Assembly (NCBI RefSeq): GCF_024734665.1
Contig: NZ_CP102931.1
Span: 5,330,001-5,394,000 of the forward strand
Source of the DNA: Variovorax paradoxus
GTDB taxonomy: Bacteria; Pseudomonadota; Gammaproteobacteria; Burkholderiales; Burkholderiaceae_C
DNA length: 64,000 nt
Direction: 5' to 3'
In this document: positions 1,105 to 16,311 of the stretch, piece after piece
How the letters are laid out: each line of letters opens with the position of its first letter
Numbering within the stretch: the first letter of the stretch is position 1
Program-made: the position numbers and the translations under genes
Notes under the pieces: model-generated
Told to the model about the DNA's origin: nothing
The model's database searches: none
What the model saw: only the letters and a program-made list of their open reading frames with translations

Positions 1105-2822
1105 AGATCATCGCCCGGGAGATCCCCCCGCGCACCGTCTGGGCGCTGGAGCAGGCCGGCGTGCATCCGCTGCTGGCAAGGCTCTTCGCCGCGCGTGGCG
1201 TGCGCGCCAAGGAAGAGCTCGACGACGGCCTCGCACGCCTGCTGCTTCCCGACACGCTGCGCGGCACGCACGAGGCCGCGGTGCTGCTGGCCGACGCCAT
1301 CGCCCAAGACAAGCGCCTGTGCATCGTCGCCGACTACGACTGCGACGGCGCCACCGCCTGCGCAGTCGGCGTGCGCGGCCTGCGGCTGCTGGGCGCCAAG
1401 CACGTGAGCTACCTCGTGCCCGATCGCGTGGTCGACGGCTACGGCCTCACGCCGCCCATTGCCGAGCGCGTGGCCGACAGCGGCGCCGACATGCTGATCA
1501 CCGTCGACAACGGCATCGCCAGCGTCGAAGGCGTGGCCGCCGCCAAGGTGCGCGGCCTGCAGGTGCTGGTGACCGACCACCACCTGCCCGGCCCCGAGCT
1601 GCCCACGGCCGACGTGCTGGTCAACCCGAACCAGCCCGGCTGCGAGTTCGAGAGCAAGAGCATCGCCGGTGTCGGCGTGATGTTCTATGTGCTGCTCGCA
1701 CTGCGCTCCGAGCTGCGCAGGCGCGGCGTGTTCGACACGGCCACGCAGCCCAAGCTCGATGTGCTGCTGCCGCTGGTTGCGCTCGGCACCGTGGCCGACG
1801 TGGTGAAGCTCGACGCCAACAACCGCCGCCTTGTGGCGCAAGGCCTGCGCCGCATCCGTGCCGGCACGATGCCCGCCGGCGTGGCCGCGCTCTTCAAGGC
1901 CGCGGGCCGCAATGCATCGGCGGCCACCACCTTCGACTTCGGCTTCGCACTCGGCCCGCGCATCAACGCCGCCGGCCGGCTGGCCGACATGACGCTGGGC
2001 ATCGAATGCCTGCTGACCGACGACGCAGGCCGCGCCGAAGAACTTGCGCGCATGCTCGACGGCATCAACCGCGAGCGGCGCGACATCGAGGGCGGCATGC
2101 GCGACCAGGCGCTGCTGCTGGCCGAATCGCTGTTCGCCACCGATGGCGAAGGCATCGAAGCCCCGCCGCCGGCCATCAGCGTGTTCGACGCGGGCTTTCA
2201 TGAAGGCGTGGTGGGCATCGTGGCCTCGCGCATCAAGGACCGCTTTCACCGCCCGACTTTCGTCTTCGCCGCGAGCGGCGCGCCGGGCAAGGAACAGGAG
2301 CTGAAGGGCTCGGGCCGGTCGATTCCCGGCTTCCATCTGCGCGACGCGCTCGACCTCGTGGCCAAGCGCCATCCGGGCGTGCTGCTGCGCTTCGGCGGCC
2401 ATGCGATGGCGGCTGGCTGCACGGTCGCGCGCGAGCACTTCGAGACTTTCGAGAAAAGTTTCGCACAGGTGGCCGGCGAATGGCTGGCCGAGGCCGCGCT
2501 CACGCGGCAGATCGAGACCGACGGGCCGATCGAGCGCGAGTACATGCGCATCGACCTCGTCGACACGCTGCACCGCGAGGTGTGGGGCCAGGGCTTTGCG
2601 CCGCCCACTTTCAGCGAAGAAGTGGAAGTGGTGTCGCAGCGGCTGGTGGGCGAGAAGCACCTGTCGCTCAAGCTCAGGCACCAGGGTCAGCCTATCGACG
2701 CGATCTGGTTCAGCCACACCGAGCCGCTGCCGCCGAAGGTCAAGCTGGCGTTCCGGCTCGATGCCGATGAATGGCAGGGCGTGCGCAGGCTGCGCTTCCT
2801 GGTCGAAGGCGCTGAGTTTTAA
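1101..2822 (+). CDS. recJ: Single-stranded-DNA-specific exonuclease RecJ
   Basis: This is a 573-aa DHH-family 5'-3' single-strand DNA exonuclease acting in recombinational repair, base excision and mismatch repair. The DHH phosphoesterase core is clear: DYDCDG (residues 78-83) supplies metal-binding aspartates and VTDHHLPG is the DHH motif that names the family. The DHHA1 part carries the FGGHAMAAG segment, followed by a C-terminal OB-like region. Length matches the family. The ATG at 1101 overlaps the preceding stop by four bases and has GGAGG a few bases upstream. The diguanylate cyclase begins 9 bases after its stop. Confidence 0.97.
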   Translation: MKIIAREIPPRTVWALEQAGVHPLLARLFAARGVRAKEELDDGLARLLLPDTLRGTHEAAVLLADAIAQDKRLCIVADYDCDGATACAVGVRGLRLLGAKHVSYLVPDRVVDGYGLTPPIAERVADSGADMLITVDNGIASVEGVAAAKVRGLQVLVTDHHLPGPELPTADVLVNPNQPGCEFESKSIAGVGVMFYVLLALRSELRRRGVFDTATQPKLDVLLPLVALGTVADVVKLDANNRRLVAQGLRRIRAGTMPAGVAALFKAAGRNASAATTFDFGFALGPRINAAGRLADMTLGIECLLTDDAGRAEELARMLDGINRERRDIEGGMRDQALLLAESLFATDGEGIEAPPPAISVFDAGFHEGVVGIVASRIKDRFHRPTFVFAASGAPGKEQELKGSGRSIPGFHLRDALDLVAKRHPGVLLRFGGHAMAAGCTVAREHFETFEKSFAQVAGEWLAEAALTRQIETDGPIEREYMRIDLVDTLHREVWGQGFAPPTFSEEVEVVSQRLVGEKHLSLKLRHQGQPIDAIWFSHTEPLPPKVKLAFRLDADEWQGVRRLRFLVEGAEF

Positions 2823-2831
2823 GGGGCCTCG

Positions 2832-3989
2832 ATGTTCGACGGCGTGAGCTACGGCCTGCTGGCTGGCCTGACGACCTGCGGCCTGGTGCTGCTGCTGGTG
2901 TTCGGCATGAAGGTCCACGGCTGGTACGCGTTGAGCTGCGCGTGCGCGCTGGCGGCCTTCGCCGGGTTGAACAGCCTCGCGCCTTCCGCGCAATTCGCGC
3001 AATGGCCCGCGGCGGCGCTGGTGTTGTGGACAGCATGCCGTCTGCAGTTCGTGCGGCAATTGCTGCGGCTGGAAGATTTCGCGCCTCGACTCGACCGGGT
3101 CGCGCAGGCAACGCTGGTCATCTTCGCGATCGCCACGCTCTATGCCGCGCTCGAAACGCAGCGCCTGTGGACACTGCACATGGTGCAGGCGCTGGCTGTG
3201 GCTTCCACCTTGATCCTCGCGGCGGGCGCTGTGAAGGTGCTGCGCCGCCAGCCGTGGCCGGCAGCGCTGTTCCTGGCCGGCGCGGCACTGCTGCTCGGCG
3301 GCCTCTCGGCCACGCGGATGTCGGCCTGGATCGGGCCGGCGTGGGCGCCGCCCCAGCCGAACCTGGTGCAGGCCGCGGTGATCGCCGAACTGGTGGTCTT
3401 CATCTTCGCGCTCGGCATGCGCCTGCGGGGCGATAGCGCCGGCGAGGCACGCACGCAGCAGAAGGCGGGAGACTCGGGCACCGACGCGCTCACCGGCGCC
3501 GCCAGCCGCGCCGGCTTCGAGAAACGCGGCGAGGAATGGCTGCACGACGGCCGGCCTTTCTCGCTGATGCTGATCGACCTGAACGGCTTCGAGGCCGTGA
3601 ACAAGCGGCATGGCCGCGCGGGCGGCGACGCGGTGCTGGCCGCCATCGCCCAGCGCCTGCGCGAGCAGGTGCGCGCCGACGACATGGTCGCCCGGCTCGG
3701 CAGCGACGAGTTCGCGATTCTTCTGGTCGGCAGCCCGCCGCGGCAGAAGCTCGCGGAGATGGCCATCCGCATCGAGACCGCAGGCGCCAGGCCGGTGGCC
3801 TACGAAGGCCGGTTGCTCGCGGGCGGCGAGCTCAGCATGGGCATTGCCTGCCACCCCGCCGACGGCAGCACGCTGGCCGGCCTGCTCGAATCGGCCGGCC
3901 GCGCGCTTCAGCATTGCAAGCGGCAGCGCATGGGGCCGGCCTACGTCTTCGCGGGGGAACATGCGGGCGGCGCGACGGCACGTGAATGA
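2832..3989 (+). CDS. Membrane diguanylate cyclase with variant GSDEF site
   Basis: A 385-aa protein. Residues 1-200 form about six hydrophobic helices with no clear periplasmic sensor domain, and residues 217-375 form a GGDEF domain (begins DALTGAASRAGFEKR). The signature reads GSDEF (290-294), so the second glycine is serine. The inhibitory I-site RxxD (R281, D284) is intact and five residues upstream, as in PleD-type enzymes. The family makes cyclic di-GMP from two GTP. Whether the G-to-S change permits catalysis cannot be judged by eye, and a c-di-GMP receptor role through the I-site is possible. The start is 9 bp after recJ, suggesting co-transcription. Confidence 0.88.
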   Translation: MFDGVSYGLLAGLTTCGLVLLLVFGMKVHGWYALSCACALAAFAGLNSLAPSAQFAQWPAAALVLWTACRLQFVRQLLRLEDFAPRLDRVAQATLVIFAIATLYAALETQRLWTLHMVQALAVASTLILAAGAVKVLRRQPWPAALFLAGAALLLGGLSATRMSAWIGPAWAPPQPNLVQAAVIAELVVFIFALGMRLRGDSAGEARTQQKAGDSGTDALTGAASRAGFEKRGEEWLHDGRPFSLMLIDLNGFEAVNKRHGRAGGDAVLAAIAQRLREQVRADDMVARLGSDEFAILLVGSPPRQKLAEMAIRIETAGARPVAYEGRLLAGGELSMGIACHPADGSTLAGLLESAGRALQHCKRQRMGPAYVFAGEHAGGATARE

Positions 3990-4100
3990 TTTCTTCGTAA
4001 GCGTTGTCGCACGGAGCGAAATCTTCTTGCTGTGGAGGGGCCGAGCTTTCATGCAGGCCCTTTATCCTTTGCGGCGAACTCACAGGAGGATGTTTTTTCC

Positions 4101-7100
4101 ATGCGCCGCTTTGAACTCATCGAGGGAACCGCCAGCAAATTCTGGGAAATCGAGCAGGCAGACACCGAGCTCAACATTCGCTGGGGCCGCATCGGCACAG
4201 CGGGCCAGAGCCAGACCAAGTCGTTCGACGACGCCACCAAGGCAGGCACCGCGCTGACCAAGCTGGTGACCGAGAAGACCGGCAAGGGTTACTCCGAAGT
4301 AGGCGTGGCCGCCAGCGCGGCCATCGGCAAGACCGAGGCGAAGCCGAAGGTGGAGAAGCCAGAGCCAGCGGAAAAGCCCCCTACGCCGACGGCCGTCGCC
4401 GCCAGCACCACGGCCGCGGATGCGGCACCCACCGAAGGCATCGACAGCCAGGCTGACCGCGTCTTCGAAACCGTGCGCGCGCAGATCGAAGCCGGCACGC
4501 TGACCTCCAGCGACACGCTATCGGCCGGCACTCTCAAGCGCCAGCACGGCGTGAGCGAGCAAGGCGCGGCGCTCGCCTTCAAGCGGCTCAAGAATGAGGG
4601 CCTGCTGTCAGGCTGGGGCACCAGCTGCACGCCGGCCAAGGACGCCCAGGCCATCGCGAAAGCACTGGGCGCCGCAGCGCCGAGCGCATCGCACGCAGCC
4701 CCCCTCGCGACCGGCGCCGAAATGCCCGCGAGCGCCGACACCCCGCCCTGGCTCGCCGCCGGCACGCCCATACGGCTCTCGCCCGACATGCAGCGCGAAG
4801 CCTTCCCGTCGCGCCGTTTCCCGCCGAAGCCCTTCGAAGAAGTGGTGAGCGTGGCCGCAGCCTGGCTGCCGGTGCGCCGCAAGCTCGAACTCAACGTCAA
4901 CATGACCGGCACCGATGCGGCCCTGCAGGCGGCCACGCAGCGCATGATCGACCGCAGCACGCAGCCCAACCCCACGGCCGATGTTGAGGCCGACACCGTG
5001 CTGCTGGCGCTCGCGCTGGGCACCGGCGGCCACTACAACGTGAACGAGACGGGCACCGTGCTGGTGAACTACCTCGTCAAGCAATACGGGCTGCCGGACA
5101 CCATCGACATGGCGCTGGCCGCGCAGCAGATCGAAGTGCAGACCGCCTACGACCGCGCGACGAAGAAGCACCAGAGCAGTTTCAGCGCCACCGTCACCCG
5201 CCAGACAGGCAGCAGCTACTACGGCCCGCTGGGCGAAGGCGAGCAGGCGCTGCGCGCGCACCTGGCGCTGGCCGCCCCCGAGGTCTGGCAGGACTGCCGT
5301 GACCGCATCGAAGCCGGCCTGCCCAGGGTGCACCTCAGCCGCCAGCCCGCGCTGGCAATGCTGCTGCCCGATGCGCCCGAGATCTCGAACACGCTCGTGC
5401 ACACGCTCGCGGCCGACAAGAACACGCCCGAGACGATGCACTGGCTGCAACTGACAGCCACCGACCCCGACGCCATCGCGCTGGCCGCGAAGGTCCGCCT
5501 GAGCTATTCGACCGGCTTCTGGGGCAGCGGCCCCATGACGAGCACGCTGGTGCAGGAGCGTGGCCTGGACGCGGTTGCGGTACTGGAGCGCGGCGCCGCC
5601 ACCGACGATGCGGGCGATGCGCTGGCGTGCATCGGCACGCCCGAAGCCGTGCAGGCGCTGGCCCGCGTGGCGAGCAATTCGAAGGGTGCGCTGGCGCGGC
5701 TGGCGCTGGCCGTCGACCGCTGGCCGATGGCGGCCATTCCCGCGCTGTCGCGGCTGGTCGCGGCGGGCGGGAAAGACGCCAACCTCGTCACGCCCAGCCT
5801 CACGCGCCTGCTGCGCGCGCATGGCTCGGCCCTGCCGGCCTTGCGGCCCTGGCTCGATGCCGGCGCTCAGGCGGTGATCGACCGGCAACTGGCCCTGCTG
5901 GCCGGCCCCACCGAGGTGGCCGACGCGAGCGAGCTGCCCGGCGTGCTGGCCGCGCCGCCATGGCTCGCCAAGGTGCAGAAGAAGGCCGCAGGCGCGCTCG
6001 TGCTGGAGCCGCTGGCGCTGGCACCGGTGGAGCAATGGGGCGAAGGCGAGCGCGAGAAAGCGCTGCGCCTGAACTCGTGGCAGACCGGCCGCCATGACGC
6101 CGCACGCAAGAACACCGAGGCGCTGCTCAACGAGCTGGGTTTCGACGAGAAAAAGGGGGAGGCCATCGGTCCGCTGGGCAAAGCCGCGGCCGCCGCCATC
6201 AAGGCCGGCGATGCCGAGGGCCTGATCTCCAACTGGCGCGCCATGGTGGCCGAACGCAAGAAGGCGCGCTACTACTGGTTCACCTTCTATCCGAGCTTCG
6301 CGACGCTGCTGCCAGCCGCCATCGGCGTGCCGTTCTGGAATGCGATCGCGGGCGAAACCGAGAGCGACAGCATCGGCATGATGCTGGCCACGCACGGCCT
6401 CGCCGTGCTGCCGGGGCTGGTGGCCATGGTGCGCTCCAAGCCCACCGACAACCTCTCGTACGCCCTGAACTACGGCGCAGCCGAGCTGGCCATGCCGGCC
6501 GCGCGCGCCTTTGCCAAGCTCAAGACGCTGCGCGCCGAAGGCCGCGAATGGCTGCTGAAGTACCCGCAGCACGCCGCCGCCGGCCTGATCGGGCCCGCGC
6601 TCGGCAAGCCCGGCGAGGCGCGCGACTGCGCGGGCTCGGCACTGCGCCTGCTGCAGGCCAACGGCCACGAAGCGCTGCTGCTCGACGTGGCCGGCCGCTA
6701 CGGCAAGCCCGAGGTGGTGGAAGCGCTGCGCGCCGTGCTCGACGAAAGCCCGCTCGACCGCTTCCCCACCAAGCGCGCGAAGCTGCCCGAGTTCTGGCAG
6801 CCGCGCGGCTGGCGCCGGCCCACGCTGAAGAACGGCAAGGCCCTGCCCGACGACACGCTCGACAACCTCGGCCAGATGCTGACCTTTCCGACCAACGAGG
6901 AAATCTACGGCGGCATCGCCGTGGCCAAGGAGGCTTGCGACGCCGACTCGCTCGCCGAATTCGCGTGGGACGCCTTCACCGCCTGGCTCGAAGCCGGCGG
7001 CCCGAGCAAGGAAGGCTGGGCGCTCACCGCGCTCGGCTTCTTCGGCAACGACGACACCGCGCGCAAGCTCACGCCCTTCATCCGCGCCTGGCCGGGCGAG

Positions 7101-8261
7101 GCCGCGCATGCACGCGCCGTGACGGGGCTCGACGTGCTCGCCACCATCGGCAGCGACGTTGCGCTGATGCTGCTCAATGGCATTGCGCAGAAGGTCAAGT
7201 TCAAGGGCCTGCAGGACAAGGCGCGCGAGAAGATCGACGCCATCGCCGAGGCGCGCGGCCTCAGCACCGAGGAGCTCGAAGACCGGCTCGCACCTGACCT
7301 CGGCCTCGACGAGCAGGGCACGATGCGGCTCGACTTCGGCCCGCGCGCCTTCAAGGTCGGCTTCGACGAAACGCTCAAGCCCTACGTGCGCGAAGCCAGT
7401 GTTGACGGCGCCGACGGTGTCGACGGCGCGCGCCTGCCCGACCTGCCCAAGCCCAAGAAGACCGACGACGCCGAACTCAGCAAGGAAGCGGTCGAACGCT
7501 TCAAGCTGCTGAAGAAGGACGTGCGCACCATCGCCAGCCAGCAGCTGCTGCGCCTCGAAGTGGCAATGTGCGCGCGCCGCCGCTGGACGCCCGAGGTGTT
7601 CCGCATGTTCCTGGTCGAGCACCCGCTGGTGCGCCACATCGTGCAGCGGCTGATCTGGGGCGTGTACGCGGTGCAAGGCAGTGCCAGCTACGGCGGCACG
7701 CTGCAGGCCTGCTTCCGCGTGGCGGAAGACGGCAGCTACACCACGGCGGAAGATGATCCGTTCGAACTGCCCGAGGGCGAGAACATCCGCATCGGCGTGC
7801 CGCATGCGCTGGAGCTGCCAGCCGCCGACGCAGCGGCCTTCGGCCAGGTGTTCGCCGACTACGAACTGCTGCAGCCCTTCGCGCAGATCGGCCGCGACAT
7901 CTACACGCTGACCGACGAAGAGAAGAAGAGCCTGAAGCTGGAGCGCTGGAAAGACGCCAAAGTGCCCACCGGTCGCGTGCTGGGGCTGGCCAACAAGGGC
8001 TGGCGCCGCGGCCAGGCGCAGGACGGCGGCTGCATCTGGTACTTCAGCAAGCCGCTGGGCACGGACCGCGTGATCGAGCTGAGCCTGGACCCCGGCATCA
8101 TCGTCGGCATGGTGGACGAATACCCCGAGCAGACGCTGGGCCAGGTGCAGGTGGGCAAGCCCTCGGGCTGGGGCGACATGCGCGATGCCGAGGCGCTGCA
8201 CCAGCTCGATCCGATTTCCGCCAGCGAACTCATCCGCGACATGGAAGGCCTCAGGGCATGA
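4101..8261 (+). CDS. WGR-winged-helix-DUF4132 giant protein (YehI/MolR-like)
   Basis: A 1386-aa protein. I start it at ATG 4101 (MRRFELIEG), with AGGAGG at 4084-4089. Residues 1-75 are a WGR domain (W28-G29-R30, then IGTAGQSQTKSF), a fold known from PARPs and bacterial proteins to contact nucleic acid or protein. An Ala/Pro/Lys-rich linker (70-115) leads to a winged-helix-like segment at about 117-175. A long alpha-rich, HEAT-like body follows, and the C-terminal ~300 residues match DUF4132. The arrangement recalls E. coli YehI/MolR. It opens a six-gene operon with MoxR and VWA proteins and is a likely substrate-recognition or effector subunit. Biochemical function is unknown. Confidence 0.88.
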   Translation: MRRFELIEGTASKFWEIEQADTELNIRWGRIGTAGQSQTKSFDDATKAGTALTKLVTEKTGKGYSEVGVAASAAIGKTEAKPKVEKPEPAEKPPTPTAVAASTTAADAAPTEGIDSQADRVFETVRAQIEAGTLTSSDTLSAGTLKRQHGVSEQGAALAFKRLKNEGLLSGWGTSCTPAKDAQAIAKALGAAAPSASHAAPLATGAEMPASADTPPWLAAGTPIRLSPDMQREAFPSRRFPPKPFEEVVSVAAAWLPVRRKLELNVNMTGTDAALQAATQRMIDRSTQPNPTADVEADTVLLALALGTGGHYNVNETGTVLVNYLVKQYGLPDTIDMALAAQQIEVQTAYDRATKKHQSSFSATVTRQTGSSYYGPLGEGEQALRAHLALAAPEVWQDCRDRIEAGLPRVHLSRQPALAMLLPDAPEISNTLVHTLAADKNTPETMHWLQLTATDPDAIALAAKVRLSYSTGFWGSGPMTSTLVQERGLDAVAVLERGAATDDAGDALACIGTPEAVQALARVASNSKGALARLALAVDRWPMAAIPALSRLVAAGGKDANLVTPSLTRLLRAHGSALPALRPWLDAGAQAVIDRQLALLAGPTEVADASELPGVLAAPPWLAKVQKKAAGALVLEPLALAPVEQWGEGEREKALRLNSWQTGRHDAARKNTEALLNELGFDEKKGEAIGPLGKAAAAAIKAGDAEGLISNWRAMVAERKKARYYWFTFYPSFATLLPAAIGVPFWNAIAGETESDSIGMMLATHGLAVLPGLVAMVRSKPTDNLSYALNYGAAELAMPAARAFAKLKTLRAEGREWLLKYPQHAAAGLIGPALGKPGEARDCAGSALRLLQANGHEALLLDVAGRYGKPEVVEALRAVLDESPLDRFPTKRAKLPEFWQPRGWRRPTLKNGKALPDDTLDNLGQMLTFPTNEEIYGGIAVAKEACDADSLAEFAWDAFTAWLEAGGPSKEGWALTALGFFGNDDTARKLTPFIRAWPGEAAHARAVTGLDVLATIGSDVALMLLNGIAQKVKFKGLQDKAREKIDAIAEARGLSTEELEDRLAPDLGLDEQGTMRLDFGPRAFKVGFDETLKPYVREASVDGADGVDGARLPDLPKPKKTDDAELSKEAVERFKLLKKDVRTIASQQLLRLEVAMCARRRWTPEVFRMFLVEHPLVRHIVQRLIWGVYAVQGSASYGGTLQACFRVAEDGSYTTAEDDPFELPEGENIRIGVPHALELPAADAAAFGQVFADYELLQPFAQIGRDIYTLTDEEKKSLKLERWKDAKVPTGRVLGLANKGWRRGQAQDGGCIWYFSKPLGTDRVIELSLDPGIIVGMVDEYPEQTLGQVQVGKPSGWGDMRDAEALHQLDPISASELIRDMEGLRA

Positions 8262-8677
8262 GGCTGCGCCCCTGGATGCTGGCCACGGGACTCGCTCTGG
8301 CTGTGGCTGCGGCCGCAGCCCAGGGCACGGCGCCCGAGGTGCCGGCACGGGTGCGTACGGTGGCGACCGGCGGTGAATGGCTCTCGCCGAAAGGCGGCGG
8401 CGTGCTCCGCGTCGTGATTGCCGACGAGGGCTTCGAGCATGTGCACTCGCGCCTCTGGATCGAATGGCTGGCCATCGACGAGCGCGGCGCGCCACGGCGA
8501 ACGGCCCGGGTGCTCGTGAAGGAACTGTCGAACGGCATGGCCGTGCTCAGGCTGGACGACCGGGGCGAGGCTTTCCAGGGCGGCCGAATCCGGCTGCGGT
8601 CCACCCACACCTATTCTCAAGACACCACGGACATCACGATCGAGACCGGCAAGCCCGGTCACTACAGGATCCTCTAG
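8258..8677 (+). CDS. Small secreted protein in the MoxR-VWA operon
   Basis: This 139-aa protein begins with an ATG overlapping the previous stop (ATGA). Residues 1-22 form a basic start plus an Ala-rich hydrophobic stretch, with a probable signal-peptidase I site near AAA-QG. The mature part (about 115 aa) is predicted beta-rich: alternating hydrophobic runs such as VLRVVIAD and LRLDDRGEAF. No cysteines or catalytic motif are seen. I do not recognise a family. It is odd because every other gene of the operon looks cytoplasmic. Position and overlap support co-expression with the WGR protein and MoxR ATPase. Its role is unknown. Confidence 0.75.
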   Translation: MRLRPWMLATGLALAVAAAAAQGTAPEVPARVRTVATGGEWLSPKGGGVLRVVIADEGFEHVHSRLWIEWLAIDERGAPRRTARVLVKELSNGMAVLRLDDRGEAFQGGRIRLRSTHTYSQDTTDITIETGKPGHYRIL

Positions 8678-8694
8678 CTTCACCCCCACCCATC

Positions 8695-9828
8695 ATGGCC
8701 ACTTCCAGCAAGTCCTCCCCAGACACCGGCGCATCGAACCTGCAGCGCCCGCCAGCCGAGATCCTGTACGCCGCACAGCTCGCGCGGCTGCAGGCGCAAG
8801 ACAAAGACCCGCGCCCGCCCGGCTGGGTGCTCGGCCTGAAGGCCGCACGCTCGTTCATCCTCGGCGACGTGGCGCTCGACATCGCGCCCAAGATCGTCGC
8901 GCCCGTGGCCAGCATCGAGCGCATGCTCGTCACGCTGGCTACCGGCCGCGGGCTGATGCTGGTGGGCGAGCCGGGCACGGCGAAGTCGATGCTGTCGGAG
9001 CTGCTGGCCACGGCCATCTCGGGCATCTCGACGCTCACCATCCAGGGCGGCGCGTCGATCACCGAAGACCAGATCAAGTACGGGTGGAACTACGCGCTGC
9101 TCATCAACGAAGGCCCGAGTCCGCGCGCGATGGTGCCGGCGCCGCTGTACCTCGGCATGCAGCAGGGGCAGGTGGTGCGCTTCGAAGAAATCACGCGAGC
9201 GCCGCTGGAAGTGCAAGACTGCCTGCTCGGCATGCTGTCGGACCGCGTGATGGCGGTGCCCGAGCTGTCGGGCGAGCACGGCATGCTCTATGCGCGCGAG
9301 GGCTTCAACATCATCGCCACCGCCAACACGCGCGACCGCGGCGTGAACGAGATGAGCGCGGCGCTGAAGCGGCGCTTCGACTTCGAGACGGTGTTTCCCA
9401 TCCTCGACTTCGACCGCGAACTGGCGCTGGTGCAGGAGTCGTCGACGCGGCTGCTCGCGCAGAGCGGCATTCCGAAAACCGTGCCAGCACCTGTGCTGGA
9501 GCTGCTGGTGTCGACCTTCCGCGACCTGCGTGGCGCGCCGACCAAGGGTGACAACGGCAACGCAGGCGATGCCGCGATGGACCGGCTCACCGCCGTGATG
9601 TCCACCGCCGAAGCCGTGAACGTGGCGCATGCGGTCGGCGTGCGCGCCTGGTTCCTAGAACAGCGCGAAGGCTCGCCCGCTGACCTTGTCGATTGCATCG
9701 CCGGCACGGTGGTGAAGGACAACGCGGACGACCGCGCGAAGCTGCGGCGCTACTTCGAGCAGAAGGCCGCCAAGCGAAACGGCGCCCACTGGCGCGCCTA
9801 CTACGAAGCACGCCACCGTCTGCCCTGA
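8695..9828 (+). CDS. MoxR-family AAA+ ATPase (YehL-like)
   Basis: A 377-aa ATPase starting at ATG 8695, 17 bp after the secreted-protein gene. Walker A is GEPGTAKS (91-98). The Walker B region reads VVRFEEITRAP (160-170), with Glu where most MoxR proteins have Asp. Sensor 1 and arginine-finger segments are visible in IIATANTRDRG (206-216) and LKRRFDFE. MoxR ATPases work as hexamers with a VWA partner to remodel or activate target proteins, and YehL is one of the named MoxR subfamilies. The cognate VWA gene lies two genes downstream, which fits such a pairing. The substrate is unknown. Confidence 0.92.
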   Translation: MATSSKSSPDTGASNLQRPPAEILYAAQLARLQAQDKDPRPPGWVLGLKAARSFILGDVALDIAPKIVAPVASIERMLVTLATGRGLMLVGEPGTAKSMLSELLATAISGISTLTIQGGASITEDQIKYGWNYALLINEGPSPRAMVPAPLYLGMQQGQVVRFEEITRAPLEVQDCLLGMLSDRVMAVPELSGEHGMLYAREGFNIIATANTRDRGVNEMSAALKRRFDFETVFPILDFDRELALVQESSTRLLAQSGIPKTVPAPVLELLVSTFRDLRGAPTKGDNGNAGDAAMDRLTAVMSTAEAVNVAHAVGVRAWFLEQREGSPADLVDCIAGTVVKDNADDRAKLRRYFEQKAAKRNGAHWRAYYEARHRLP

Positions 9829-9838
9829 ACACGCGCCG

Positions 9839-12283
9839 ATGCAGCAACCCCATATCGTTGGCGTGCGCCATCACAGCCCGGCCTGCGCGCGGCTGGTGGC
9901 CGAGCGCATTCGCACGCTGCGCCCGGCGTACGTGCTGATCGAAGGCCCGGCCGATTTCAACGAACGCCTCGACGAGCTGTACCTGCCGCACCAGTTGCCG
10001 GTGGCGATCTACAGCTATCTCTCGGGCGACCAGACGCACCGCGGTTCGTGGTCGCCCTTTGCCGAACATTCGCCCGAGTGGCAGGCGCTGCAGGTGGCGC
10101 GCGAGGTCGGCGCCACCGTGCGCTTCATCGACCTGCCGGCCTGGCACGACGCCTTCTCGCGCATGGAGAACCGCTACGCCGACGTGGCCGACCACGAGCA
10201 CGAGGAGCGCGCCGAAGCCTACGAGCGCGCGCTGACCGAAAAGCTCTCGGTGCAGGGCCGCGATGCGCTGTGGGACCACCTGTTCGAGGACGGCTGCGAT
10301 GCGGCTGAGCTGGCGCAGCGCCTCTTGACCTATTTCGACCACCTGCGCGGCGAGGACCGGGGCTCGCAAGGCAACCAGGCACGCGAGCAGATGATGGCGC
10401 GCTGGATCGCCTGGGCGATGGCGCAGCCGGGCGAACCGGGCCGGGCGCAGGCACTGGTGGTGTGCGGCGGCTATCACGCGCCCGCGTTGGCGCGGTTGTG
10501 GCAAAGCGTGCCGTCTGAACTGCCCGCCACGCCACAGCCCTCGCTCGAATCCTCCGACGATGAAGAAGCGCCGGGGACGCCCGACCCCGAGGCCACGCTG
10601 CGCTTCGGCTCCTACCTCGTGCCCTACACCTTCAAGCGCCTCGACGCCTTCGCGGGCTACGCATCGGGCATGCCCTCCCCGGCCTACTACCAGTGGGTCT
10701 GGGACCATGGCCCCGAAGGCGCCGCACACCGCGCGCTGCAACACGTGATGCAGCGCCTGCGCGAAAAGAAACTGCCCGCCTCCACCGCCGACCTGATGGC
10801 CGTGCACCTGCGCGCGCAAGGACTCGCGCGGCTGCGCGGGCACGAGAAGCCGCTGCGCTCCGACTGGCTCGACGCGCTGGCCGGCGCGCTGGTGAAAGAC
10901 GCGCTCGATGCGCCCCTGCCCTGGACTTATCGCGGCGCGATTCGCCCCGGCACCGACCCCGTGCTGGTGCAGGCGATGGACGTGCTGGCCGGCGACACCG
11001 TCGGCCGCCTCGCGCCCGGCACGCCGCAGCCGCCGCTGGTGGCCGCCGTGCAGGCCGAGCTCGCGGCGCATGGCATCGTGCTGCGCGGCCAACTCAAGCT
11101 CGACCTGCTGCTCGAAACCGACCGCGCGAAGAGCCGCGTGTTGCACCGACTGTCGGTCCTGCGGCTGCCCGGCGTGCGCCGCACGCAGGGGCCGAAGCTC
11201 GCGATGTCGGGCGAACGCACCGAACTCTGGTCGCTGAGCGAGCCGCTGGAGCAGCAGGCCGCGTTGATCGAGGCCGGCGCCTGGGGCGCGAGCCTGCACG
11301 ATGCGGCGCGCGCCCGGCTCGAAGACGATCTGCGCCAGGCCCACGGCCGCATCGGCCCGCTGGCCGACGGACTCAACCAGGCCGCGTGGGCAGGACTGTC
11401 GGCGCTCAGCGATGCGCTGCTGCGTGAGTTGCGCGGCGCAATTGCCAGCGAGCCGCGCTTCGAGGCGCTGGGCCCTGCGCTGTCGGTGCTGCACACGCTG
11501 CTGCGCCACGGCCAGATGCTGGGCATGGCCGATGCGCCGGTGCTGCGCGTGGTGATCGAATCGGGCTTCGACCGTGCGCTGTGGCTGCTGGAGCCGCCCG
11601 CCGCCATCACACCGGCAGACATGCAGGCGCACCTCGAAGGCCACCTCGCGCTGCGCCGGATCGTGGCCGATGTGCTGGCCCATGCACAGGACAACGCGCA
11701 CGATGCGCATGCGCCGTCGCTGCTCGATGTGGAGCCGGCCCGCGCGCTCGCCGTGTGGCAGCGCAAGGCCGCCGACACCAGCGCCGCACCCGTGAGCCGC
11801 GGCGCGGCGCTGGGCGCAACGCTGAGCCTCGCTGGTCGGATTACCGATGCCCAAACGCACAGCGATCACGGCGTGAGCGAAGCCATGCAGCTGCTGCACT
11901 CGCTGCCCGCGCCGGTGCTCGGCGACGCGCTCACCGGGCTGCTGGCGCTGGCGCGCGAAACGCTGTCGTCCGAACCCGCTTTCGTCGCCGGCATGGACCG
12001 CACCGTACAGGCGCTGGACAACGCCGACTTCGTGCGCGCCATGCCCAGCCTGCGCGCCGCCTTCGCCTGGCTGCCGCCGCAGGAGCGCGGGCTGCTGGCC
12101 GACCAGGTGCTGGCGCTGCACGATGCCACGCACCTGTCGCGCCGCGCGCTCACGGCCCATCGCACGGGCGAGGCTGCGCCTGAGCAGCTGGCCGAAGCAC
12201 GCAGCGTGGAAGACGCCGTGCTCGCGCGCCTCGCAGCCTGGGGCGTGACACTGGAAGACGCGCAAGGAAGGCCCCACCCATGA
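9839..12283 (+). CDS. DUF5682 family protein (YehM-like)
   Basis: An 814-aa protein starting 10 bp after the MoxR gene. The N-terminus carries GVRHHSPACARLV and LIEGPADFNERL, the conserved opening of DUF5682, and GGYHAPALARLW lies near residue 210. The remainder is alpha-helical and Leu/Ala-rich. No membrane segment or known catalytic triad is apparent, although the conserved HH/SP and GGYH segments could form an active or metal site (inference). In E. coli the equivalent YehM lies beside the MoxR ATPase YehL. It shares a four-base overlap (ATGA) with the VWA gene and so is probably a stoichiometric component of the same machine. Confidence 0.88.
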   Translation: MQQPHIVGVRHHSPACARLVAERIRTLRPAYVLIEGPADFNERLDELYLPHQLPVAIYSYLSGDQTHRGSWSPFAEHSPEWQALQVAREVGATVRFIDLPAWHDAFSRMENRYADVADHEHEERAEAYERALTEKLSVQGRDALWDHLFEDGCDAAELAQRLLTYFDHLRGEDRGSQGNQAREQMMARWIAWAMAQPGEPGRAQALVVCGGYHAPALARLWQSVPSELPATPQPSLESSDDEEAPGTPDPEATLRFGSYLVPYTFKRLDAFAGYASGMPSPAYYQWVWDHGPEGAAHRALQHVMQRLREKKLPASTADLMAVHLRAQGLARLRGHEKPLRSDWLDALAGALVKDALDAPLPWTYRGAIRPGTDPVLVQAMDVLAGDTVGRLAPGTPQPPLVAAVQAELAAHGIVLRGQLKLDLLLETDRAKSRVLHRLSVLRLPGVRRTQGPKLAMSGERTELWSLSEPLEQQAALIEAGAWGASLHDAARARLEDDLRQAHGRIGPLADGLNQAAWAGLSALSDALLRELRGAIASEPRFEALGPALSVLHTLLRHGQMLGMADAPVLRVVIESGFDRALWLLEPPAAITPADMQAHLEGHLALRRIVADVLAHAQDNAHDAHAPSLLDVEPARALAVWQRKAADTSAAPVSRGAALGATLSLAGRITDAQTHSDHGVSEAMQLLHSLPAPVLGDALTGLLALARETLSSEPAFVAGMDRTVQALDNADFVRAMPSLRAAFAWLPPQERGLLADQVLALHDATHLSRRALTAHRTGEAAPEQLAEARSVEDAVLARLAAWGVTLEDAQGRPHP

Positions 12284-13404
12284 GCCTCGACATTCCCGAT
12301 CCGCTTCAGCGCTGGCGCCTGTTGCTGGGCGACCCGGCCGAATCGGCCTGCGGCAGCCTGAGCGCCGAGGCGCAGGCCGCCGATGCCGCGCTCGACTGGC
12401 TCTACGGCCGCGACGGCGACCGCGCGACCCGTGGCGAACGCAGCGCGGGCCTGGGCCCGTCGGCGCTGACCACGCCGGACTGGATCAACGCCATCCACAC
12501 GCTCTTTCCGAAAGAAGTGATCGAGCGGCTGGAGCAGGACGCGGTCGAGCGCTACGGCATCGACGAGGTTGTGACGAACCTCGAAGTGCTGGAGCGCATC
12601 GAGCCTTCGGAATCGCTGCTGCGCGCGGTGCTGCACACCAAGCACCTGATGAACCCGCAGGTGCTGGCGGCCGCGCGCAAGCTGGTGGCCGAGGTGGTGC
12701 GGCGCATCATGGAAAAGCTCGCCACCGAAGTGCGCCAGGCCTTCAGCGGCAGCCGCGACCGGCGCCGCCGCTCGCGCATGAAGGTGGCGCGCAACTTCGA
12801 CTTCAAGCAGACGCTGGCGGCCAACCTTCACCGCTACGACCCGCAGCGCCGCAAGCTCTACGTGGAACGGCCGGTGTTCATCAGCCGCACCAAGCGGCAT
12901 GCCGAGCCTTGGGACATCATCTTGCTGATCGACCAGAGCGGCTCGATGGTCGACTCGGTGATCCACAGCGCGGTGATGGCCGCCTGCCTGTGGCAGCTGC
13001 CCGGCATGCGCACGCGGCTCGTGGCCTTCGACACCGCGGTGGTCGACCTGACCGCCGACGTGTCGGACCCGGTCGAGTTGCTGATGAAGGTGCAGCTGGG
13101 CGGGGGCACCGACATCGCCAAAGCAGTGGCCTATGCGCAGTCGCTCGTCGCCAATCCGCGCAAGAGCATCGTGGTGCTGGTGAGCGATTTCTACGAAGGC
13201 GGCAGCGAGCATGAACTGGTGCGCCGCGTGAAGGCGCTGGTCGAGTCCGGCGCGAAGGTGCTGGGGCTGGCTGCGCTCGACTCGAAGGCCGAGCCCAACT
13301 ACGACCGCGAGATGGCGGCGCGGCTGGTGCGCGAAGGTGCGCAGATCGGCGCGATGACGCCGGGCCAGCTCGCCGGCTGGCTGGCCGAGAAGGTGCAGGG
13401 ATGA
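12280..13404 (+). CDS. VWA domain protein, MoxR partner (YehP-like)
   Basis: A 374-aa protein. Residues 1-200 are helical and charged, with an Arg-rich patch near 158-167. A VWA domain spans about 210-370. The MIDAS metal site is complete: DQSGS (D218, S220, S222), the threonine of GGTD (T277) and D303 in VSDFYEGG. VWA proteins of this type bind MoxR ATPases and couple ATP hydrolysis to a target through the MIDAS metal. The gene overlaps DUF5682 upstream and the SWIM gene downstream by four bases each. No signal peptide is seen, so it is cytoplasmic, unlike secreted VWA proteins. Confidence 0.92.
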   Translation: MSLDIPDPLQRWRLLLGDPAESACGSLSAEAQAADAALDWLYGRDGDRATRGERSAGLGPSALTTPDWINAIHTLFPKEVIERLEQDAVERYGIDEVVTNLEVLERIEPSESLLRAVLHTKHLMNPQVLAAARKLVAEVVRRIMEKLATEVRQAFSGSRDRRRRSRMKVARNFDFKQTLAANLHRYDPQRRKLYVERPVFISRTKRHAEPWDIILLIDQSGSMVDSVIHSAVMAACLWQLPGMRTRLVAFDTAVVDLTADVSDPVELLMKVQLGGGTDIAKAVAYAQSLVANPRKSIVVLVSDFYEGGSEHELVRRVKALVESGAKVLGLAALDSKAEPNYDREMAARLVREGAQIGAMTPGQLAGWLAEKVQG

Positions 13405-15557
13405 GCGGCTCCACGACAACATGGCGCACCGACCTGCTCGAGCTGACGCCCGAAGCGCTGACGGCGCTGGCCAACGCGGGCTTCGTCAAGCGCGCGCAGA
13501 AAGACGTAGCCGCCGGCCTGCTGCCGAAGTTGGAGACCAACGCCGACGGCGTGGTGCAGGCGCAGTTCGACGACGGCGTGCGCACCAGCCTGCCGCCGGG
13601 GCGCACGCTGCGCGATGCGCAGTGCAGTTGTCCGGCCAGCGGCATGTGCCGGCATCGGGTGATGCTGGTGCTGGCTTACCAGGCACAAGCTGCGTCGGAA
13701 AAAGCCGATGCGCCGGCAGCGGCCGACGAGGTTTCAGCGGAGCCGGACGGTGCATGGAGCCCCGCGCAGTTCGACGATGCCGCGCTGGCCGCGAGCCTCG
13801 CGCCCTCGGTGCTCGAGCAGGCGAACAAGCTCGCCGCCGCACGCCCGGTGGTCGGCGTGCAGGCCTGGCGCAGCGCCAGCGCGCCGCCCGTGGCGCGGCT
13901 GCCGATGTGCAGCGTGCGCTTCTTCTCGCGCAGCTCGCTGGTTCATGCGCGCTGCGATTGCAAGCAGGGCAGCGGCTGCGCGCACGTGGTGATCGCGGTG
14001 TGGGCCTTCCGGCAGGCCGGCTCGCTGGCGCCCGGTTCGGCGGAGGTGATGGTCGAGGTGCAGCCGTCCGCATCGGCGGGCATGGATGCTGCGGAACCCG
14101 CGCCGCTGCCCTCAGCCATGCAGGGCGAAGCCGCGCTGACCCTGCGCACGCAGATCGACGCCCTGCTGCTGTCGCTCTGGCTCGACGGTTCCAGCCAGCC
14201 GCTGATGGCGCTGGCGGCCCGCTTCGAGGCCGTGCGCAGCCAGACGCGCGCGCTGGGCTGGAATTGGATCGACGACGCGCTCGACGAGCTCTGGCAGCTG
14301 CTACAAGCCCAACAGGCGCGCAGCAGCCGATTCGAGCCACTGCGGCTGGTGCGCGTGCTGACCGAGCTGTGGGCGCGGCTGCAGGCGGCGGCGCATGCCG
14401 GGCGGCCGCAGGATGGCTCCGCACGGCCAGCGCTGCCGGCCAGCCAGATCCTAGGCATCGGTGTGAAGGGCGAGGTCGCACTCGACCATCTGCGGCTGGT
14501 GTCGCTCGGCGCGGAGCTCTGGTCCGACGAGACGGCCGAAGGCGCGAACATTCTCTTTGCCGACCCCGACACGCAGAACGTGACCGTACTGGAACGCCAG
14601 TGGTCGCGCGAGGCCGACGCCGCAGCCGGCGGCGCGGCACCCAACCTGCTGAACCGGCGTGTCGCGGGCTTTCCGCTGCGGCAGCTGGCAAGCGGACAGG
14701 TCATCACCAAGACCGCGACGCGGCGCGCCAACGGGCTGGTCGACATCACGGCAGGCGCGCGGCAGACCGGCGTACTGCCGCTGTCGCCGAAGTCGTGGGA
14801 CGACCTGGTCGCGCCGCTGCGGCAGGACAGCGTGGCGGGGCTGGTGGCGCATCTGAAAGAAGCGCAGCCCGATTTCGTCCGGCCGCGGCAGGCGGCGAGT
14901 GGCGCATCGGCTGGTGCCTCAGGGCAGCTGCATGTGGTGGCGTTCGAACGCATGGATGTGGCGTCTTGTCACTGGGATGCGGCGGCGCAGGTGCTGCATG
15001 CGCGGCTTGGACAGGCGGTGGCGGACGAGGCGAGCGAAGCCAAGGCCGAAGACGCGCAGCTGCATCTGGCGTTGCCGCATCGCGCGGCCACACCTGGCGC
15101 CGTCGATGCGCTGGCCCGCACGCTTGCCGGCGAATACGGCGCGCTGCGCGCCGTGGCGGGCACGGTGCATCTGCAGGGCAGCCAGGCGGTCATGCAGCCT
15201 CTGAGCCTGCTGACGGCACAACGCGCAGTGGTGCTGCAGGTCGAAGCGGTCGCACCGAAGCCGCTGGATCTGGAAAGCGACGCCGAAGAAGTACCCGCAC
15301 TGAACGCGCTGGCCGGCGATACGCTGGAACTGCTGGCGCTGTGGCTGCGACAAGGCCTGCGCCATCAGGGCGGTGGCGCAATGTCGAAGGCGCAAGCGCA
15401 GGTGCTGCGGTTGAAGCAGGCCGGGCTGGGGCGAGGCGCAACGCTGCTGGAGGCCGTGCTCGAAAATTTGCGCTCGGCGCAACGGCCGGCGCTGGTGGCA
15501 CAGCTGGCAATGCTGGGCTTGCTGATGCAGGGCGTGGCGCAATCGGCCTCGGCATGA
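13401..15557 (+). CDS. SWIM-type zinc-finger protein with two CxC(5)CxH motifs (YehQ-like)
   Basis: A 718-aa protein that closes the operon. Two zinc-binding motifs of identical spacing are visible: C75-x-C77-(5)-C83-x-H85 and C185-x-C187-(5)-C193-x-H195, both of the SWIM form CxCx(n)CxH. SWIM motifs bind nucleic acid or protein. The remaining ~500 residues are Leu/Ala-rich helices without a recognised domain. E. coli YehQ is the corresponding SWIM protein at the yeh locus. The ATG overlaps the VWA stop. The stop codon touches a hairpin that ends transcription here and for the opposing tRNA. Molecular role unknown. Confidence 0.87.
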   Translation: MSGSTTTWRTDLLELTPEALTALANAGFVKRAQKDVAAGLLPKLETNADGVVQAQFDDGVRTSLPPGRTLRDAQCSCPASGMCRHRVMLVLAYQAQAASEKADAPAAADEVSAEPDGAWSPAQFDDAALAASLAPSVLEQANKLAAARPVVGVQAWRSASAPPVARLPMCSVRFFSRSSLVHARCDCKQGSGCAHVVIAVWAFRQAGSLAPGSAEVMVEVQPSASAGMDAAEPAPLPSAMQGEAALTLRTQIDALLLSLWLDGSSQPLMALAARFEAVRSQTRALGWNWIDDALDELWQLLQAQQARSSRFEPLRLVRVLTELWARLQAAAHAGRPQDGSARPALPASQILGIGVKGEVALDHLRLVSLGAELWSDETAEGANILFADPDTQNVTVLERQWSREADAAAGGAAPNLLNRRVAGFPLRQLASGQVITKTATRRANGLVDITAGARQTGVLPLSPKSWDDLVAPLRQDSVAGLVAHLKEAQPDFVRPRQAASGASAGASGQLHVVAFERMDVASCHWDAAAQVLHARLGQAVADEASEAKAEDAQLHLALPHRAATPGAVDALARTLAGEYGALRAVAGTVHLQGSQAVMQPLSLLTAQRAVVLQVEAVAPKPLDLESDAEEVPALNALAGDTLELLALWLRQGLRHQGGGAMSKAQAQVLRLKQAGLGRGATLLEAVLENLRSAQRPALVAQLAMLGLLMQGVAQSASA

Positions 15558-15591
15558 AAAAACCCCTGAGCCGGTTCAGGACTCAGGGGTT
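15557..15591. terminator. Shared bidirectional hairpin terminator
   Basis: A 10-bp perfect stem (AACCCCTGAG at 15561-15570 with CTCAGGGGTT at 15582-15591) has an 11-base loop. An A6 run at 15557-15562 gives a U-tract for the reverse (tRNA) transcript, and TTCTTTG follows on the forward side. The A-run includes the last base of the SWIM gene's stop codon. Confidence 0.85.
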
Positions 15592-15598
15592 CTTTGCT

Positions 15599-15674
15599 TG
15601 GTGCCGCTTGTCGGAATCGAACTGACGACCTTCCGCTTACAAGGCGGGTGCTCTACCAATTGAGCTAAAGCGGC
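15599..15674 (-). tRNA. tRNA-Thr (anticodon UGU)
   Basis: The reverse strand folds as a 76-nt tRNA with encoded CCA (TGG at 15599-15601). The acceptor stem GCCGCTT pairs with AAGCGGC, the discriminator is A, and the T-loop is GTTCGATTC. The anticodon loop CTTGTAA gives UGU, which reads threonine ACA/ACG codons. A TAGAAT box lies about 20 bases upstream without a clear -35. The 3' end faces the MoxR-VWA operon across the shared terminator. Confidence 0.95.
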
Positions 15675-15703
15675 GAAATTCCAGTGCGTGATTCTAGTAG
15701 CGC

Positions 15704-15722
15704 CAGCCGGCATGGCCGGCTG
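15704..15722. repeat. Hairpin between sspB and tRNA-Thr
   Basis: An 8-bp inverted repeat (CAGCCGGC / GCCGGCTG) has a 3-base loop and lies 13 bases past the sspB stop. No T-run follows on either strand, so it may stabilise the sspB transcript end or help a factor-dependent stop. Function is inferred only. Confidence 0.45.
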
Positions 15723-15735
15723 CTCGCTCCTGCCG

Positions 15736-16311
15736 CTACTTGACGCGCTTGAGCGAGGGCCTGGTGCCGCCACCGGCCGGCGGGCGCGGCGGCTCGTCGA
15801 CCGGATCAGCGGGCGAGCCCGCATCGACCGTTTCGTCGCCGTCCTCGCCCGTCACCAGGTGAACGATCTTGCCGGCATCGCCTTCGGTGCCGCGCGAGGC
15901 GTCACGCAAGGGCATGCGGGCCGGACCCTGGGGCGAAGGCGTGGAAACCGGGCCATCGCTGCCATCGTGCTCCGAGGGAACCGACGGTGCCGGCGCGGGA
16001 AACGCCATGCCCTGTCCGTTTTCGCGTGCGTAGATGGCAATCACGCGCCCAACCGGCACGCTGATTTCACGCGCCGTACCCGCAAAACGGGCCTTGAACT
16101 CGATGAAGTCGTTGCCGAGCTTGAGCGAGCTGGTCGCGTCGAAGCTGATGTTGAGCACGATCTCGCCGTTCTTCACGTACTCGCGCGGCACCTGCACGGT
16201 GTCGTCGACCTGCACCGCGACATAGGGCGTGAACCCGTTGTCGGTGCACCATTCGTACAGCGCCCGGATGAGGTACGGGCGGGTGGAGGACGACTCGAGC
16301 GCGTTGATCAT
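15736..16311 (-). CDS. sspB: ClpXP protease specificity-enhancing factor SspB
   Basis: A 191-aa protein. The N-terminal ~110 residues match the SspB substrate-binding fold (RPYLIRALYEWCTDNG..., VLNISFDATSSLKLGN, SFARFAG-like strand). A flexible, Pro/Asp-rich tail follows and ends in a short basic/hydrophobic piece, SLKRVK, as expected for the ClpX-binding tail. SspB tethers ssrA-tagged peptides to ClpXP. It lies 41 bp downstream of sspA in the usual sspA-sspB order and is probably co-transcribed. Confidence 0.95.
   Translation of the reverse strand: MINALESSSTRPYLIRALYEWCTDNGFTPYVAVQVDDTVQVPREYVKNGEIVLNISFDATSSLKLGNDFIEFKARFAGTAREISVPVGRVIAIYARENGQGMAFPAPAPSVPSEHDGSDGPVSTPSPQGPARMPLRDASRGTEGDAGKIVHLVTGEDGDETVDAGSPADPVDEPPRPPAGGGTRPSLKRVK

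Follow-up and report, generated by a model that had tools for sequence, protein, structure and literature searches.

A conserved five-gene MoxR-vWA module of Variovorax paradoxus, shared with Escherichia coli and many other bacteria, contains a predicted TIKI/TraB/ChaN-type enzyme

In both CoxD-CoxE and RavA-ViaA, a MoxR ATPase is paired with a VWA partner. CoxD is needed to assemble the CuSMoO2 cluster of CO dehydrogenase, and RavA-ViaA, the E. coli MoxR-VWA pair other than the one considered here, is proposed to help respiratory complex I mature; seven MoxR subfamilies are recognised, YehL among them (PMC3893208). MoxR-vWA pairs are also the core of described conflict systems, whose ternary forms add a dedicated third component (Kaur et al. 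2020, PMC7159879). Here we describe a YehL-type locus of Variovorax paradoxus in a stretch of 64,000 nucleotides (contig NZ_CP102931.1, positions 5,330,001 to 5,394,000; hereafter the window), part of a 7.29-Mb single-contig genome. Like CoxD-CoxE and RavA-ViaA, the locus encodes a MoxR ATPase and a VWA partner, the latter with a VWA_CoxE domain; unlike them, it adds DUF5682, SWIM and solenoid proteins, which are nearly always present together. With the conflict ternary systems it likewise shares a MoxR-vWA pair plus a dedicated third component; however, the main text of PMC7159879 mentions none of WGR, SWIM, Yeh, DUF5682 and DUF4132, and the components match no PADLOC family beyond a weak WGR hit. 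The module is an ancient, widespread five-gene MoxR-vWA set found across many phyla, and its DUF5682 member is predicted to be an enzyme. The run consists of six open reading frames (ORFs) at 4101-15557:

4101..8261, + strand: WGR-DUF4132 protein of 1386 aa, a YehI relative with an N-terminal WGR domain, a HEAT-type solenoid and a C-terminal DUF4132 alpha/beta domain (Pfam, BLASTP, AlphaFold)
8258..8677, + strand: small orphan ORF with a signal-peptide-like start, a lineage-specific passenger (no Pfam match; absent from the operons of two close relatives, L037 and L038)
8695..9828, + strand: MoxR AAA+ ATPase of the YehL type, with Walker A GEPGTAKS and Walker B RFEEI (AAA_5; 74% identity to YehL)
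9839..12283, + strand: DUF5682 protein, residues ~1-275 a predicted TIKI/TraB/ChaN-like domain and ~420-795 a helical solenoid (Pfam, invariant residues, AlphaFold, fold matches, hhalign)
12280..13404, + strand: VWA_CoxE protein, a YehP relative with intact motifs resembling a metal-ion-dependent adhesion site (MIDAS; DQSGS, GGGTDI) (Pfam; 70% identity to YehP)
13401..15557, + strand: YehQ relative with two SWIM zinc-finger motifs (Pfam; CxC..CxH at residues 75 and 185; 34% identity to YehQ)

The ORFs form a single coherent run, with 4-base overlaps at 8258-8261, 12280-12283 and 13401-13404 and spacers of 17 bp between 8677 and 8695 and of 10 bp between 9828 and 9839, in agreement with the layout given in an initial annotation of the sequence. 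Pfam assignments were WGR (E-value 3e-17), DUF4132 (1e-49), AAA_5 (1e-32), DUF5682 (3e-100), VWA_CoxE (1e-61) and SWIM (4e-6). The same annotation had equated five of the genes with yehI, yehL, yehM, yehP and yehQ, and BLASTP bears this out (YehI 31%, YehL 74%, YehM 45%, YehP 70% and YehQ 34% identity), as does the gene order in E. coli K-12, which is yehF, yehH (a pseudogene), yehI, yehK, yehL, yehM, yehP, yehQ. The two loci differ in that the window has its WGR domain (50% identical to E. coli YehF over 66 aa) joined to the DUF4132 protein, and a different small gene at the yehK position. The nearest named proteins to the DUF5682 protein, at 97-98% identity, are from Variovorax. A second DUF4132 gene lies apart from the module in the same genome (G000:C1:6918630-6919193).

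We then examined how firmly these genes keep company. Among 397 Pseudomonadota genomes drawn evenly, DUF5682 was present in 16, DUF4132 in 12 and both in 10 (P 2e-14). The 10 genomes with both carry what we call architecture A, in which DUF4132, mostly in first place and in one to three copies, is joined by MoxR, DUF5682, VWA and SWIM genes. Architecture B, in which SWIM, DUF5691, MoxR, DUF5682 and VWA genes occur with no DUF4132, is the sole type in six genomes, and one genome has both. DUF4132 was found without DUF5682 in two genomes of the draw (G007 and G174). On a wider scale, a scan of one genome per species gave 80 named loci (the best 80 of 572), which by their record titles come from proteobacteria, actinobacteria and planctomycetes as well as from Verrucomicrobium, Lachnospiraceae, Oscillospiraceae, Hyalangium, Leptolyngbya, Dictyobacter and others. 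Partners were counted by tblastn, for which the reference set had been extended with sequences from 10 of these loci, and genes in the fetched loci were called by a custom script. Of the named loci, 59 have 9 kb or more on each side; MoxR was found in 58 of these, VWA in 59, SWIM in 58 and a scaffold gene in 55, and all four in 55; three of the exceptions have no scaffold (L046, L079, L111) and one has VWA only (L077). MoxR and VWA flank DUF5682 immediately in 72 of the 75 loci that have 8 kb or more on either side; of the other three, two have a DUF4132 gene in between and one lacks MoxR. The flank filter leaves outside L083 (5.7 kb upstream) and, of the 16 draw loci, L020 and L033. NCBI's own annotation shows the same sets on three plasmids, with architecture A in Iodobacter and Allorhizobium and architecture B in Deinococcus taeanensis.

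The genes called in the named loci are tightly packed (median gaps of -1 to -4 bp), and in L069 (1224 aa) and L099 (1268 aa) DUF5682 and VWA form a single open frame. Because of this conserved company, the gene overlaps and the two DUF5682-VWA frames, the five proteins probably form one complex, and the multi-protein complex proposed in the initial annotation is thus well supported. Pairwise divergences of MoxR, DUF5682, VWA and SWIM also correlate (rho 0.90-0.95 across 56 loci), to which shared ancestry of the hosts contributes. A set without fixed membership and of patchy distribution had been named as the pattern that would speak against such a machine; the distribution is indeed patchy, but the five genes stay together. 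We dropped a DUF5682-WGR fusion hinted at by open frames of 1180 and 1183 aa, as the genes are separate in L035. Two DUF5682 genes of planctomycete-type genomes (L077 and L083) have no detected MoxR partner, and L083 no partner at all. In six Lachnospiraceae- or Oscillospiraceae-type loci (L092, L098, L101, L104, L110, L112), an ORF of ~100-147 aa lies between SWIM and a downstream DUF4132 gene.

The sixth gene of the run (8258-8677) does not belong to this set. It is a real ORF, with a start that resembles a signal peptide when judged by eye, and it has no Pfam, NCBIfam or PADLOC match and no BLASTP similarity to YehK, to which it is unrelated. In L037 and L038 it is missing from the operon, where the DUF4132 stop lies 8 bp before MoxR, and among 81 genomes of the same genus a match at E 0.001 occurs in 26, of which six (this one included) reach at least 56% identity and the other 20 are weak. 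Since the small gene is absent from the operons of close relatives and sparse in the genus, the conserved machine comprises five genes, and we reject the six-gene machine, with its small "secreted" protein, that had been initially annotated. Relatives of the small gene at 56-57% identity occur in G388, G471 and G453, all without the close version of the module, and it may be an independently used gene.

The DUF5682 protein itself looks like an enzyme, which goes beyond what had been annotated before. In 81 diverse DUF5682 sequences, E35, E80, D98, E150, R182, E183 and H213 are invariant; three rows lack the N-terminus owing to start calls, and the 78 rows that cover this region all have H11, and 77 of them H12. 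The recurrent motifs are GxRHHSP (first residue G or P), LIEGP, RExxM and GGxH. In 21 TraB-family domains the same succession of GxxH, E, R and GxxH is found, without variation. Enzymes of the TIKI superfamily, which takes in ChaN and erythromycin-esterase-type proteins, have a set of two histidines and two glutamates on a parallel sheet (PMC6254334). The conserved H11, H12, E35, E183 and H213 of DUF5682 would fit such a set, with the residue-to-residue correspondence being our inference. Profile comparison with hhalign, as single pairwise tests, gave P 3.4e-4 (probability 38%, 176 columns) against 16 ChaN-family domains, with the first histidine, glutamate, E-xx-M and GxxH in register (L179, which has stops in frame, was left out of the ChaN set), and P 8e-4 (probability 25%) against 26 TraB domains over 39 columns around RExxM and GGxH. 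The controls MoxR, VWA and SWIM gave P 0.24-0.72, and the positive control, TraB to ChaN, 1.7e-5 (79%).

The N-terminus of the AlphaFold model of DUF5682 has a predicted local distance difference test (pLDDT) score of 90, and the PDB entries closest to the model are chains from a complex described as including a TraB-family protein, with chain DQ the putative TraB subunit; neither a TraB protein nor a TraB profile turned up anything useful in PDB searches. ChaN and erythromycin-esterase structures are not among the fold matches listed for the model. A PDB search with the DUF5682 profile found mainly chains of the ATP-synthase stalk (E from 2e-4), which match the helical part and were taken as chance. 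We consider a TIKI/TraB/ChaN-type fold of the N-terminus quite likely, and on balance we predict that the protein is catalytically active. Given the near-invariant residues, the PDB matches and the motifs in register with ChaN, DUF5682 is probably the enzyme of the set, with the N-terminal domain probably its catalytic part, a predicted peptidase-like or other hydrolase. DUF5682 thus has the GxxH, E, R, GxxH set and the predicted fold in common with the TIKI/TraB/ChaN/erythromycin-esterase superfamily, but differs in its long helical solenoid and its MoxR-VWA operon, and the sequence similarity is weak (hhalign 25-38%).

The window MoxR matches YehL along its full length (74% identity over 364 aa), which places it in the YehL subfamily, and its relatives keep the Walker A pattern in 60 of 68 and the Walker B pattern in 62 of 68. 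The VWA protein scores 208.7 bits against PF05762 (cut-off 26.4) and has both DQSGS and GGGTDI; DxSGS is kept in 60 of 67 relatives. The two SWIM motifs that had been noticed in the last protein are present, and 67 of 69 SWIM proteins have at least one CxC..CxH motif, 21 of them two. On the other hand, the "winged helix" attributed to the DUF4132 protein amounts to a sub-threshold GntR match (E 2.5e-4, 21.1 bits vs a cut-off of 27). Residues 217-1386 of that protein were modelled with pLDDT 91.3, and the structural matches, mostly repeat proteins, fell on the HEAT-type solenoid that makes up most of its length, with the C-terminal alpha/beta domain inside the model. DUF5691 gave a sub-threshold HEAT_2 match in one of three proteins scanned, and both architectures may use a repeat scaffold (DUF4132 in A, DUF5691 in B). 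In PARP proteins the WGR domain is a binder of DNA ends, and SWIM domains are found with nucleic-acid proteins.

A DNA-damage response, also raised in the initial annotation, finds some support in other hosts and none in the window. In E. coli, where the run opens with yehF, a LexA-type box, CTGGATAAAATTACAG, starts 25 bp upstream of that gene, and molR is listed among known LexA-regulated genes (PMC11039860). We scanned for LexA-type boxes in 30 chosen proteobacterial loci, 25 with a definable first gene, using a consensus box and 372 control upstream regions. Scores exceed the control 99th percentile in three of the 25 loci, namely L032 (19.5, above all controls) and the Proteus loci L085 and L115 (both 18.0), with the boxes ~30 bp before the first gene; for two lineages of 25 this gives P 0.008. 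The other 22 of the 25 loci do not exceed the 99th percentile, and the window, unlike the E. coli run, has no LexA-type box (its score of 13.0 equals the background median), so that LexA-type control of the window operon was rejected. Boxes of the forms GAAC-N4-GTTC and GTTC-N7-GTTC gave scattered one-mismatch matches only. In Deinococcus taeanensis, a site of the radiation/desiccation response motif (RDRM) type lies 36 bp ahead of the operon's first gene and is, at 19.6 bits, the best in 25 kb on both strands; the next, unrelated site scores 12.1 bits, and random sequence gave one match in 1 Mb (upstream composition) and none in 2 Mb (locus composition). The matrix was built from just eight sites, and one Deinococcus operon was examined. 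In D. radiodurans, DRA0166 (DUF4132) and DR2173 (WGR) are reported as members of the DdrO regulon whose induction by mitomycin C depends on DdrO and IrrE (PMC8533742). The LexA-type and RDRM/DdrO-type boxes upstream in some hosts suggest a DNA-damage link, and since two unrelated damage-response repressors thus lie near relatives of one machine, the link is suggestive, in few hosts.

Taken together, our tentative reading, possible and a little short of probable, is that the five proteins form a MoxR-vWA complex in which a predicted TIKI/TraB/ChaN-type enzyme, DUF5682, is gated by MoxR-VWA and which is damage-induced in several hosts. The MoxR ring and its VWA partner would remodel or gate the DUF5682 enzyme using ATP, while the solenoid scaffold (WGR-DUF4132, or DUF5691 in architecture B) and the SWIM protein would bring the enzyme to its target, probably nucleic acid or a nucleic-acid-bound protein; the module would be made upon DNA damage in several hosts. 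A bolder and rather unlikely form of the idea has WGR and SWIM sensing damaged or foreign nucleic acid on the HEAT-type scaffold, whereupon MoxR-VWA would unlock DUF5682 as a damage-induced, ATP-gated hydrolase that cleaves a protein target and so sets cell fate or repair, with LexA and DdrO both controlling the machine; such a module would have gone unnoticed in E. coli and in many other phyla.

Of 5,426 E. coli genomes, 5,374 have some match, some of them tiny, and at least 3,973 retain 80% or more of the yehF-yehQ run at a single site; chromosomes account for 7,351 of the 7,353 sites matched. Both molR and yehI-yehQ are missing from E. coli DGF-298 (PMC10652928, table), so these genes are non-essential. 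In some E. coli strains (hits H16-H18) the best match ends between yehK and yehL (L001, ~14290-14597), near where hit H19 begins, and the operon may be split there by insertion or rearrangement. No paper on the function of yehI-yehL-yehM-yehP-yehQ is among the literature matches listed; in the literature searched, within whose reach most subscription papers did not fall, we found no mention of "DUF5682", and a joint search on DUF5691, DUF4132, SWIM, MoxR, yehP and yehQ led only to the DGF-298 paper. In the genus of the window, DUF5682 is present in 34 of 81 genomes in about three versions, the close version in 14. In the window and in G461, the operon lies between recJ-GGDEF and tRNA-Thr-sspB, and the recJ-tRNA-Thr interval (window 2822-15736, with tRNA-Thr at 15599-15674 before sspB) varies across the genus: recJ is 1.7 to 2.6 kb from the tRNA with no operon gene found in L123, L125, L127 and L128, other genes fill the interval in L124 and L126, and other genes lie beside the tRNA, with recJ outside the fetched stretch, in L122 and L129. 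Nine proteins from L122, L124 and L126 are of TRAP-transport, RuBisCO-like, sugar-binding, glycosyltransferase, aminotransferase, methyltransferase and histidine-kinase types. On the Iodobacter plasmid (L184:16092-19749), the module adjoins type I restriction-modification genes and a PDDEXK nuclease.

Among the other explanations, a phage-defence or conflict role, in which DUF5682 would be the effector of a MoxR-vWA ternary-type system released on infection, strikes us as quite improbable. The kinship with the core of described conflict systems, the patchy presence in the genus, the restriction-modification genes on the Iodobacter plasmid and the operon's place in an interval empty of it in other genomes would suit such a role, yet the nine proteins sampled from three other occupants near the tRNA-Thr site are metabolic, transport, surface-sugar or signalling proteins, which by these examples indicates a variable chromosomal site and no defence island. 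Of the PADLOC families, only WGR_XIII matched a module component (E 0.007, 12.8 bits, 74 residues). The 122 neighbours, from 24 of 96 loci, gave at most 12 PADLOC matches, a raw count without a background rate; some bear defence names (mad2 in three; PD-Lambda-2_C, MzaA and DpdF in one each), several are generic, and dGTPase, WYL and others also occur once each. Matches are rare in phage records (1 of 50,697) and plasmid records (36 of 72,556, several of chromosome size), and the locus is common and chromosomal in E. coli. The phage response first raised as a possibility for these genes is thus unsupported, as is a defence-island reading.

A cofactor-loading chaperone seems to us somewhat unlikely, though it has more to commend it: the VWA protein belongs to VWA_CoxE, the ChaN family (PF04187, Cofac_haem_bdg) aligned with DUF5682 over most of the domain, and Tiki activity is metal-dependent, while that of another TIKI-family enzyme is not (PMC6254334). 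MoxR-VWA would then, like CoxD-CoxE, insert metal or haem into the ChaN-like domain of DUF5682 or through it into another enzyme, with the name MolR hinting at molybdenum. The WGR and SWIM domains are left unexplained by this account, D. radiodurans moeA and moeB were reported as not differentially expressed on DdrO depletion (PMC8533742), and we saw no recurring metalloenzyme neighbour, a weak point since most neighbours are without annotation. Alternatively, the set could be a general stress chaperone that matures or protects a housekeeping complex, as is proposed for RavA-ViaA, with DUF5682 an adaptor bearing a dead TIKI fold. Its dispensability in DGF-298 is compatible with this; however, the candidate catalytic residues hardly vary, if at all, across 81 sequences, which is unusual for a dead domain, and presence in 16 of 397 genomes ill suits a housekeeping role, making this explanation unlikely. 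A gated MoxR-VWA-DUF5682 enzyme complex remains the reading we prefer.

YehL is a named MoxR subfamily for which we found no function in the literature, and even in E. coli K-12 its partner genes lack characterisation. With specific residues named in a predicted enzyme, a fixed set of partners and a candidate inducing condition, this annotation gap becomes experimentally approachable. If our reading is true, DUF5682 would be a new kind of third component for MoxR-vWA systems and the module a new member of the bacterial DNA-damage response.

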